64,000 nucleotides of DNA from Haladaptatus sp. ZSTT2 (GTDB lineage Archaea > Halobacteriota > Halobacteria > Halobacteriales > Halococcaceae): positions 1,054,001 to 1,118,000 of the forward strand of contig NZ_JBAMHQ010000001.1 in assembly GCF_037081775.1 (NCBI RefSeq), given 5' to 3'. The notes below the pieces were generated by a model. That model did no database searches. It saw nothing but the letters and a program-made list of their open reading frames with translations, and was not told where the DNA came from. Positions 1,221-5,206 of this stretch are shown piece by piece. Each line of letters begins with the position of its first letter. The first letter of the stretch is position 1. The position numbers were made by a program, and so were the translations under genes.

Positions 1221-3143
1221 TTACGCGAGGAAATCAGGTTCGAGGCGTTTTTCTTCCTGTTCAGATTCGAGGTGGGCTTGGAATTCTGCGAGTTCCACAC
1301 CATTGCGGTCGCGCTCTTTGCGGTCGCGCACGGAGATGGTGCGGTCTTCTTCCTCGTTGCCGCCGATGATGATTTGGTACGGCACGCGGTCGGTGTGGGC
1401 CTGCTGAATCTTGCGCCCGACCGTCCACGAGCGGTCTTCGATGGTGACGCGGAAGTCACCGAGGCGGTGTTTGAGTTCTTTCGCGTACGGGATGTTGTCG
1501 TCGCTGACCGGGAGGATGCGCACCTGCTCTGGGGCGAGCCAGAACGGGAACTTGCCGTTGTAGTGCTCGATGAGCACCATGAAGAAGCGCTCGAAGGAGC
1601 CGTAGAGCGCGCGGTGAATCATGACCGGCCGGTGGTCTTCGTTGTCCTCGCCGGTGTAGGTGAGGTCGAAGCGCTCTGGCATGTTGAAGTCGAGTTGCAC
1701 CGTCGGTCCGTCCCACACCCGGCCGAGGGCGTCCTCGAACGAGAAGTCGATTTTCGGCCCGTAGAACGCGCCATCTCCGGCTTCGACGCGGTAGTCGATG
1801 CCCGACTCGTCGAGCACGCTTTCGAGTTGCGTCTCTGCTTGCTCCCAAATTTCGTCGCTGCCGACCGATTTCTCGGGGCGGGTGGCGAGGGCGACCTTGT
1901 ACTCTAAGTCGAACGTTTCTAAGACTTCGAAGATGAGGTCCATCGTGTCTTCGACTTCGGATTTAATCTGGTCGGGGCGGACGAACAGGTGGCCGTCGTC
2001 GATGGTGAACGCCCAGACGCGCGAGAGCCCGGAGAGTTCGCCGCGTTGTTCTTTGCGGTACACCTTTCCGTTTTCTGCGTAGCGAACGGGCAGGTCACGG
2101 TAGCTCCACGACCCCTGCTTGAAGATGGTCGCGTGGCCGGGGCAGTTCATCGGCTTCAGGCCGTACTCCTCGTCGTTCACATCGAGGAGGAACATGTCGT
2201 CCACGTAGTTGTCGTAGTGACCCGACTGCTTCCAGAGTTCCGTGCGGAACAGGTGGGGCGTCTCAACGTAGTCGTAGCCGAAGCTCTCGTTCAGCGACTG
2301 GCCGTAGCCTTCGAGTTGTTGCAGAATTTTCTTCCCGTTCGGGTGATAGAGCGGGAGGCCAGGGCCGGTGACTTCCGGAATCGAAAAGAGGTCGAGTTCC
2401 TGGCCGAGTTTGCGGTGGTCGCGCTCTTTTGCCTCTTCGCGCTGTTCTAAGAATTTCGTGAGGTCTTTTTCAGACTTGAACGCCGTCCCATAGACGCGGG
2501 TGAGAGTGTCGTTTTCTTCGTCGCCGCGCCAGTAGGCCGAAGAGATGTTGAGGAGTTTGAACGCGCCGATTTCGCCGGTCGATTCGAGGTGCGGGCCTTT
2601 ACAGAGGTCTTTGAACTCGCCTTGCTCGTAAAAGGAGAGTGGGTCGTCGCCCGCGGCCTCGGTCTCCAAAATATCGCGTTTGTACGGGTTGTCCTCGTAC
2701 AGCGAGAGGGCTTCTTCCCGGGAGAGTTCGACGCGCTCTATGTCGAGGTCGTCTACGATGATGGAGTCGGCTTCCGCCTCGATGGCGCGCAGGTCGTCGC
2801 TATCGATGTCAACGCCGGTGATGTCGTAGTAGAAACCGTCGTCGGTCCACGGCCCGATAGTGAGTTTGGCATCGGGGTGGATGCGCTGGAGGGCTTGGGC
2901 GAAGACGTGGGCCGCAGAGTGGCGCAGGACGGAGAGGTACTCGTCGCTCTGGGGTGTGACGATGACGAGCCGGCAGTCTTCGGTGAGTGGCGTTTCTTTG
3001 TCAACGAGGTCCCCGTCAACGACGCCAGCGACCGTGTCTCGGCCGAGTCCGGGCCCAATTTCGAATGCCACGTCTTCGACCGTCGACCCCGACTCCATGT
3101 GGAGTTCGGAACCGTCGGGTAACGTGACGACGATTTCGCTCAT
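1221..3143 (-). CDS. thrS: Threonyl-tRNA synthetase, bacterial type, full length
   Basis: This enzyme charges tRNA-Thr with threonine using ATP. The 640-residue protein has the full bacterial-type layout: TGS domain at 1-63; second additional (editing) domain with the zinc-type motif H75xxxH79 and C181xxxH185; class II catalytic core from about 245; and an anticodon-binding domain after about 535. The catalytic zinc ligands fall at C334, H385 and H510, close to the E. coli numbering. I chose the ATG at 3143 because a TATA-like box sits 26 nt upstream and the TGS domain begins there; the frame extends 25 codons further without support. It stands head to head with a second, archaeal-type ThrRS at 3371. 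The sequence shows no damage, so both enzymes look functional. Confidence 0.97.
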
Positions 3144-3165
3144 GGCCGAGGTAAGAAAGAGACGG

Positions 3166-3172
3166 AAAATAA
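3166..3172 (-). promoter_or_regulatory. TATA-like box of bacterial-type thrS
   Basis: On the minus strand the box reads TTATTTT. Its centre lies 26 nt before the ATG at 3143, which predicts a leaderless transcript, common in haloarchaea. Confidence 0.55.
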
Positions 3173-3228
3173 GTGTGTTGAGACGCGGCCACGCCCAAAG
3201 CGTGCGAAAAGCTGTCAACCACGACAGG

Positions 3229-3234
3229 TTTATG
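3229..3234 (+). promoter_or_regulatory. TATA-like box upstream of leader ORF and archaeal-type thrS
   Basis: TTTATG lies 27 nt before the ATG at 3259, not before the thrS ATG at 3371. This predicts an mRNA that starts at the short leader ORF and carries about 112 nt before the synthetase. No better box is seen closer to 3371. Confidence 0.5.
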
Positions 3235-3258
3235 CCGGACGGTCAAGTTTGCCTAGCT

Positions 3259-3303
3259 ATGAGTGTGTTGTTCGGGACAACACGTGGACTCGCCTCCTTC
3301 TAA
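3259..3303 (+). CDS. Candidate 14-residue leader peptide before archaeal-type thrS
   Basis: The ORF reads MSVLFGTTRGLASF and ends at TAA 3301-3303. The two adjacent threonines are both written ACA (3277-3282), a codon that is rare in this GC-rich genome, where ACC and ACG dominate. These codons lie in the 3' arm of a perfect hairpin (3265-3283). A TATA-like box sits 27 nt upstream of its ATG, so it could be translated as a leaderless ORF. A 14-codon ORF can arise by chance, so this is only a candidate. Confidence 0.35.
   Translation: MSVLFGTTRGLASF
3265..3283 (+). promoter_or_regulatory. Perfect hairpin in the thrS leader
   Basis: GTGTTGT (3265-3271) and ACAACAC (3277-3283) are exact inverse complements around a TCGGG loop. 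Two further G-U pairs are possible at the base. The hairpin lies between the divergent thrS promoters and inside the leader ORF, so it could be an RNA structure or a DNA operator. Confidence 0.5.
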
Positions 3304-3370
3304 GTAGCTGCGCCGCTGGCTCGCCGTTTGCCACGACTGCCCACATCCACGTATCCAACCCAAACCACTA

Positions 3371-5206
3371 ATGAAACTCCTGTTCATCCACGCAGACCAC
3401 CTCTCGTTCGAGGCGAAAAAAGAAGCCGGCCGCGACATCGCGGAAACCGACGGCGTCCCCATGGAGGGGCGCATGGACGACTGCGTCACCGTGTTCATCA
3501 GCGTCGAATCCGGCGACGCCGCAAGCGTAGACGGCGTCGTCGAAAACGCCGCCGCAGAACTCCGCGACGTGACCCAGCAACTGAACGCGGACAAGGTCGT
3601 CCTCTATCCCTACGCCCACTTGAGCAACGACCTCGCGCCACCGGACGTCGCAAAGCGCGTCATGCAAGCACTCGAAGCCGAACTGAAAGACGACTACGAC
3701 CTGCTGCGCGCACCCTTTGGCTGGTACAAGGCGTTCGAAATCTCGTGTAAGGGCCACCCGCTCTCTGAACTCTCCAGACACGTGAGTGCCCACCGAGACG
3801 AAGAAGAAGACGCCGAACCGCGCGAACCGAGCGAGTGGCGCGTGCTCACGCCTGATGGCGAACTGCGGGACCCCGTAGGGGAAAAGGCCCAGTTCAGCGA
3901 GGACTTGCGGGCGCTCATCGCCGCCGAAGTCGAGGGCGTCACCGCGAGCAAGGGACAGGAACCGCCCCACCTCGCGCTGATGGCCGAGAAGGAGTTCGTC
4001 GGCTACGACGAGCTTTCAGATGTTGGCAACCTGCGGTGGTATCCGCGCGGGAAACTCGTGCGCGATTCGCTGATGCAGTACGTGTCTGACCTTGTTATCG
4101 ACTACGGTGGGATGCCCGTCGAGACGCCAATTATGTACGACCTCGGGGCGCGCTCGATTAGCGATCACGCAGCAAAGTTCGGCGAGCGACAGTACCGCTT
4201 CGAGTCGGGTGACCGCCGCATGATGCTCCGCTTTGCCGCCTGCTTCGGCCAGTTTTCAATTATGCGCGACATGCACATCGCAGCGAACGACCTGCCGCTG
4301 CGAATCTACGAGATGAGCACCTACTCGTTCCGTCGCGAACAGCGCGGCGAGGTGCTCGGCCTCAAGCGCCAGCGGGCGTTCACGATGCCCGACATGCACA
4401 CCGCGACGAAGGACATGGAGCAGGCCAAATCCGAGTTCGAAAAGCAGGCGAAACTCGGCTACGCGACGGGTGAGGACTTGGGCGTCTTCTACGAGGGTGT
4501 CTTCCGCATGACCCGCGCGTTCTACGACGAGAACCGCGCGTGGGTCGAGGGCGTGGTCGCAGACCTCGGCAAACCCGTGTTGCTCGAACTCCTGCCCGAG
4601 CGCCACCACTACTGGTCTGCGAAAATCGACTTCGCCGTCATCGACGGCCTTGGCCGCCCCATCGAGAATCCGACGGTGCAGATAGACGTCGAAAGCGCAG
4701 CACGCTTCGACATCGAGTACAGCGACGGCCAGCAAACCCACCACCCGAACATCCTGCACTACTCGCCAAGCGGGAGCATCGAGCGAGTGATGGCCGCCCT
4801 GCTCGAACACGCCGCGACCGAGAAGGTGCCGCGCCTGCCGACGTGGCTCTCACCGACGCAGGTCAGGTTCATTCCCGTGAGCGACGACCACGTCGCCTCC
4901 TGCGACGAGCTGGTCGAAAAACTGGCGGCGGCGAAGATTCGTGCCGACGTAGACGAGCGCGCCGAAACCGTCGGCAAGCGCATCGCAAAAGCCGAACGCG
5001 ACTGGGTTCCCTACTACGTCGTCGTTGGCGACCAAGAACTCGAATCAGGCGAGTTCAAAGTGAACCGCCGCGCAGCGGGCGACGAGGTGCGCCAGTCGTT
5101 CGCGGCGCTCCGTGAGGCAGTCGATGCAGAAATCGGTGACCGGCCGCGACGGCCGCGTTATCTTCCGGCGCACGTAAGCGCTCACCCGCACTTTACGGGT
5201 GCGTAA
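3371..5206 (+). CDS. thrS: Threonyl-tRNA synthetase, archaeal type with DTD-like editing domain
   Basis: This is a 611-residue second ThrRS. Residues 1-140 form the archaeal N-terminal editing domain, homologous to D-aminoacyl-tRNA deacylase and known in other archaea to clear Ser from tRNA-Thr; YPYAHLSNDL and APFGWYKAF are typical motifs. A low-complexity acidic linker follows (144-155), then the class II core (about 215-490) with motif 2 RREQRGE and zinc ligands C291, H343 and H463, then an anticodon-binding domain. All key residues are present, unlike the split editing-only or catalytic-only versions known in some archaea. The ATG at 3371 is the first in frame. It lies head to head with the bacterial-type gene, 227 bp apart. 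The last twenty or so residues are an unusual Arg/His-rich tail. Confidence 0.96.
   Translation: MKLLFIHADHLSFEAKKEAGRDIAETDGVPMEGRMDDCVTVFISVESGDAASVDGVVENAAAELRDVTQQLNADKVVLYPYAHLSNDLAPPDVAKRVMQALEAELKDDYDLLRAPFGWYKAFEISCKGHPLSELSRHVSAHRDEEEDAEPREPSEWRVLTPDGELRDPVGEKAQFSEDLRALIAAEVEGVTASKGQEPPHLALMAEKEFVGYDELSDVGNLRWYPRGKLVRDSLMQYVSDLVIDYGGMPVETPIMYDLGARSISDHAAKFGERQYRFESGDRRMMLRFAACFGQFSIMRDMHIAANDLPLRIYEMSTYSFRREQRGEVLGLKRQRAFTMPDMHTATKDMEQAKSEFEKQAKLGYATGEDLGVFYEGVFRMTRAFYDENRAWVEGVVADLGKPVLLELLPERHHYWSAKIDFAVIDGLGRPIENPTVQIDVESAARFDIEYSDGQQTHHPNILHYSPSGSIERVMAALLEHAATEKVPRLPTWLSPTQVRFIPVSDDHVASCDELVEKLAAAKIRADVDERAETVGKRIAKAERDWVPYYVVVGDQELESGEFKVNRRAAGDEVRQSFAALREAVDAEIGDRPRRPRYLPAHVSAHPHFTGA

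Follow-up and report, generated by a model that had tools for sequence, protein, structure and literature searches.

Could an archaeal cell sense its supply of charged threonine tRNA through a mini-gene placed in front of a threonyl-tRNA synthetase (ThrRS) gene? This question is raised by a 14-codon open reading frame (ORF) that lies before an archaeal-type thrS gene in the window, that is, the whole stretch of 64,000 nucleotides of haloarchaeal DNA analysed here. In a sequence-only reading of the window, the arrangement was likened to amino-acid leader-peptide control. In E. coli, leader-peptide transcription attenuation operates at trpL, thrL and pheM of pheST; the trpL ORF is likewise 14 codons long and contains a tandem pair of cognate codons, and pheST carries the leader-peptide design on a synthetase gene. 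Control by a mini-gene with threonine codons is of a style so far described mainly in bacteria. Among open-licence papers, no experimentally described amino-acid-specific leader-peptide control was found for archaea, and a case published elsewhere is possible. The word attenuation is absent from a review of how transcription and translation are coupled in archaea (PMC8116511), and a tool paper mentions attenuation by upstream ORFs (uORFs) in archaea in general terms (PMC10219788).

The window comes from a genome of 3.23 Mb, which is split into four contigs. Downstream of the leader, the gene at 3371..5206 (plus strand) encodes an archaeal-type ThrRS with the tRNA-Thr_ED editing domain, the catalytic core and the anticodon domain (NCBIfam NF003068, 826 bits; Pfam PF08915, PF00587 and PF03129). 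Back to back with it, and transcribed divergently, is a bacterial-type ThrRS gene (1221..3143, minus strand; TIGR00418, 663 bits; Pfam PF02824, PF07973, PF00587 and PF03129), whose product has TGS, SAD, core and anticodon domains. The intergenic region measures 227 bases, and the archaeal-type thrS is here a second ThrRS gene beside the bacterial-type one. The divergent pair (1221-5206) is linked in all three genomes of the genus. In the order, archaeal-type thrS was found in 46 of the 392 genomes, 26 of which carry a bacterial-type ThrRS as well. Other combinations were also seen: in each of two genomes of another family (G046 and G098) the bacterial-type ThrRS gene is present twice, the copies being 78-79% and 55-56% identical to that of the window, and G049, G087, G094 and G136 have a more distant archaeal-type ThrRS (42-46% identity) beside the bacterial type.

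The leader ORF MSVLFGTTRGLASF (3259..3303, plus strand) consists of the codons ATG AGT GTG TTG TTC GGG ACA ACA CGT GGA CTC GCC TCC TTC TAA, and the letters and coordinates given for it in the sequence-only reading are correct. Its stop ends at 3303 and the thrS ATG is at 3371, which confirms the distance of 67 bases claimed for the two, as the profile match above confirms the type of the synthetase. Codons 7 and 8 (3277..3282, plus strand) are the tandem threonine codons ACA ACA. They had been called rare, and this is borne out by the long ORFs of the window, in which ACA accounts for 8.0% of the threonine codons, and ACA-ACA occurs once and Thr-Thr 94 times in 17,967 codons. The two codons fall in the 3' arm of a perfect 7-5-7 dyad (3265..3283, plus strand), found just as described, with the arm GTGTTGT at 3265-3271, the loop TCGGG and the arm ACAACAC at 3277-3283. 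How often would such a dyad arise by chance? Perfect arms of at least 7 bases with a loop of 3-8 were present in 0.9% of the shuffles of the 45-base leader, in 3.2% of those of 3259-3370 and in 7.0% of those of the 227-base intergenic region, and the dyad taken alone is weak evidence. Note that the dyad and the ACA codons cannot be counted separately, since ACAACAC is fixed by the left arm; the ACA codons, forced by the dyad, could be incidental. The genome has three tRNA-Thr genes, including one for tRNA-Thr(UGU), which is able to read ACA. The gene for tRNA-Thr(CGU) (C1:2737100-2737172) ends one base short of the end of contig C1. In addition, two tRNA-family matches of 103-107 bases (C1:1668240-1668346 and C1:2034441-2034543), uncalled by ARAGORN in its default mode, are perhaps intron-bearing tRNAs.

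Where, then, would the transcript begin? The best TATA score between the two genes belongs, in all three genomes of the genus, to TTTATGC (3229..3235, plus strand), which starts about 30-31 bases upstream of the leader ATG in each of them. This supports the position of the promoter box that had been read as pointing to 3259. For other haloarchaeal thrS genes, of both types, the best TATA-like site lies 27-35 bases before the ATG in 64 of 65, mostly at 30-31, and in H. volcanii 72% of the protein-coding transcripts are leaderless, most of them starting exactly at the start codon (PMC4983044). A TATA spacing of -30 is typical of leaderless thrS genes. Therefore, the leader ORF is predicted to be leaderless itself and to form the 5' end of the thrS mRNA, with the uORF and thrS in one transcript under a shared predicted promoter in the three genomes. 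A promoter belonging to thrS alone was rejected, since there is no conserved TATA at -27 to -35 and CTTTCCA at -35 is present in G016 only. The other archaeal-type thrS genes have a TATA box directly before the gene and look leaderless. On the divergent side, the promoter block of the bacterial-type thrS (CTCAACACACTTATTTT on the minus strand, 3162..3187) also stands upstream of bacterial-type thrS in other haloarchaeal families, which do not have the leader. The extended block around GTCTCAAYACACTTAT, which is wider than the usual BRE/TATA, is common to bacterial-type thrS in several haloarchaeal families.

The comparison set consisted of this genome (G000) and two other genomes of the genus (G016 and G017), three in all, and the archaeal ThrRSs of the latter two are 90-91% identical to this one. 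The ORF and the dyad are present in both, with no sign of the loss in close relatives that had been named beforehand as evidence to the contrary. Compared with G016, the leader has 0 changes in 45 bases (four-fold-site divergence 0.41; binomial 5e-11), and compared with G017 it has 2 in 45 (four-fold-site divergence 0.29; binomial 5e-5), so that 2 of the 45 columns vary among the three genomes. On these figures, the conservation of the leader is far beyond chance. In G017, Gly6 is replaced by Arg, the only amino-acid change, which sits in the loop of the dyad; the loop base varies, and both arms are invariant in the three genomes. Given this change, the leader peptide itself is not strictly kept. 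No indel falls inside the leader ORF in the three genomes; indels occur near 3362-3370. An N-terminal extension of the ThrRS into the leader was ruled out by a TAG stop at 3305 in the thrS frame, and also by these indels, which shift the frame between species.

The untranslated stretch from the leader to thrS (3304..3360, plus strand) is conserved as well, with 8 of its 57 columns variable. The variable columns crowd at 3234-3253 and 3361-3370, with few in between, and the conserved block extends from the predicted transcript start to about 3360, some ten bases before the thrS ATG. The constraint therefore follows the predicted transcript. In the upstream neighbourhood, the divergence of 3188-3222 and 3237-3253 is close to that of silent sites. 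Local rates are uneven in a sliding view of the four-fold sites, and the first 82 bases of the divergent coding sequence (3062-3143) are also very conserved, with 3 variable columns in the genus, silent sites included. Beyond the genus, a search of 391 genomes of the class that allowed up to 3 mismatches did not find the leader sequence, and a plasmid search gave no match. At the level of aligned sequence, the anatomy of the leader, its promoter spacing and the constraint along its transcribed part can be taken as established. The feature is real and conserved, and we consider it likely to have a function at the RNA level.

What kind of RNA function could this be? No intrinsic terminator or U-tract is present in 3144-3500, a search that does not bear on factor-dependent termination by FttA, which cannot be judged from sequence. 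The leader RNA does not exceed its shuffles in stability, with folding-energy z values of -0.55 for the leader alone and of +1.2 and +1.7 for long stretches, and base-pair covariation is absent among the three genomes, each pair being invariant or changed on one side only. A possible competing long-range helix is offered by ACGTGGA (3282..3288, plus strand) and its complement TCCACGT (3346..3352, plus strand), and it occurs in the minimum free energy (MFE) structure; its shuffle P is 0.12, and it too is without covariation. The helix and the dyad overlap by two bases, and the energies are not better than those of shuffles. In the MFE structure of G000, the bases just before the thrS ATG pair with the 5' end of the leader, and 3361-3370 is not conserved. 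Consequently, lacking a terminator, a covarying pair and any stability beyond that of shuffles, classical attenuation through a terminator fold is unlikely; the label is not supported and should be dropped. The part of the likeness to leader-peptide control that stands is the fit of a leader with threonine codons to a second ThrRS gene. As in E. coli trpL, thrL and pheM, the gene is preceded by a short ORF in which codons for the amino acid under control stand in tandem, and a promoter is located upstream of the leader ORF (here a predicted TATA in three genomes). In contrast to them, the host is an archaeon, the ORF is predicted to be leaderless, terminator and U-tract are missing and the alternative folds are hypothetical.

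We suggest, tentatively, that the single most likely mechanism is a leaderless uORF that senses the charging of tRNA-Thr and acts on thrS translation. As there is no terminator, we favour control of translation over termination of transcription. The transcript would begin at 3259 or only a few bases away, and the mRNA would open with the leaderless 14-codon ORF. Ribosomes would load at the 5' end of the mRNA and would presumably use tRNA-Thr(UGU) to read ACA ACA. When Thr-tRNA is scarce, a ribosome would stall at codon 7 and cover about nucleotides 1-33, that is, both arms of the dyad and ACGTGGA. The downstream part (TCCACGT, CGTATCCAACCC) and the bases before thrS would then be left open, and thrS would be translated. 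When Thr-tRNA is plentiful, the ribosome would finish the ORF, the dyad hairpin and the 3282-3288/3346-3352 helix would form, and thrS translation would be low. Translation of the ORF, the stalling, the RNA switch and the direction of the switch are all steps that we infer. Coupling in H. volcanii fades past about 30 bases (PMC12548453), and termination-reinitiation across the 67 bases is therefore unlikely. No Shine-Dalgarno sequence was seen before thrS.

Another model for comparison is the ribosome-stalling translational attenuation of the ermC type (PMC10219788), in which, as proposed here, a ribosome stalled on a uORF would alter the RNA around the start of the next gene, and no terminator is needed. 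Unlike the ermC type, the inducer would be uncharged tRNA-Thr and not a drug, no Shine-Dalgarno sequence was seen before thrS, and the stalling is hypothetical. Sensing is favoured by the tandem rare codons, which match the amino acid charged by the synthetase downstream, the constrained leader and the leaderless TATA spacing; on the other side are the sample of only three genomes, the invariant dyad without covariation, the folding like that of shuffles and the P value of the long-range helix.

The invariant arms of the dyad could also be explained at the DNA level. A dimeric repressor would bind the 19-bp dyad, at +7 to +25, and block RNA polymerase, and the ORF and its threonine codons would be by-products. 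A perfect 7-5-7 dyad just past the predicted start, with half-sites about one helical turn apart and a loop base that varies while the arms do not, would suit such an operator, and the divergent promoter has a repeat of AGTGTGTTG at 3173-3181. However, the constraint runs 77 bases beyond the dyad, to 3360, and the repeated 9-mer is part of the promoter block that bacterial-type thrS has in haloarchaea without the leader. A shared operator at the divergent promoter was rejected accordingly, the CTCAACACACTTAT block being the general promoter block of haloarchaeal bacterial-type thrS. In this genome, the dyad is the sole copy at fewer than two mismatches. Few copies with one mismatch occur across the three genomes of the genus; they are not shared, and their number is close to that of a reversed-pattern control, so that there is no conserved recurrence and a dyad regulon was rejected. 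No regulator gene was seen among the neighbours scanned. We regard the operator as unlikely.

Similarly unlikely in our judgement is a leader bound by protein, where the ThrRS or another RNA-binding protein would repress thrS translation and the mini-ORF would be incidental. Such binding would agree with a constraint on the whole transcribed leader, beyond the ORF, and autoregulation of synthetase genes is known in bacteria: the E. coli ThrRS represses the translation of its own thrS mRNA via a translational operator, which, as here, is a 5' leader before a thrS gene. Unlike the E. coli operator, the haloarchaeal leader precedes an archaeal-type enzyme and shows no likeness to a tRNA-Thr anticodon arm in an ungapped comparison with the three tRNA-Thr of the genome (best P 0.24-0.96). 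It has no Rfam match at the gathering score either, and the one sub-threshold match is on the other strand, outside the leader.

Could the mini-ORF simply be a brake? A leaderless mini-ORF would capture ribosomes and lower thrS expression constitutively, without sensing threonine. Archaeal 5' UTRs do contain uORFs, 10% of the unannotated sORFs in M. mazei Ribo-seq being located there (PMC11456600), and reinitiation over 67 bases should be poor (PMC12548453). However, plain damping leaves unexplained both the base-level conservation of the leader and the next 57 bases and the tandem rare threonine codons, and we consider it improbable. An ORF and a dyad that arose by chance, in a 5' UTR whose conservation has unrelated causes or stems from recent local recombination between species, are very improbable. 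The dyad has a chance of 1-7%, about 7% of ORFs of this size would have a Thr-Thr pair in their 13 adjacent positions and there are only three genomes, but the neighbouring stretches 3188-3222 and 3237-3253 have drifted at roughly the pace of silent sites, and a recent exchange of the whole region is therefore unlikely.

Returning to the charging-sensing uORF, such backup control makes sense for the second of two ThrRS genes. The idea is familiar from B. subtilis, whose thrZ is a second ThrRS gene under the control of a T-box, a bacterial RNA family; in both cases, a backup ThrRS would be switched on by low charging of tRNA-Thr. The haloarchaeal leader differs in having no T-box, with no match at the gathering score or at E up to 5, and no other Rfam element at the gathering score. 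The feature is real and conserved, and the threonine-sensing mechanism is unproven. With some doubt, it may represent the first archaeal amino-acid-sensing leader peptide: a leaderless uORF with tandem rare ACA codons and no terminator that controls the translation of a backup ThrRS. If the leader ORF is indeed at the 5' end of the transcript, the mechanism would be novel in that ribosome loading needs no Shine-Dalgarno sequence. The element is compact, at about 110 bases. Even without sensing, an explanation is needed for a 5' leader that is specific to the genus, strongly conserved and attached to a second ThrRS gene, among haloarchaea whose thrS genes almost all look leaderless.
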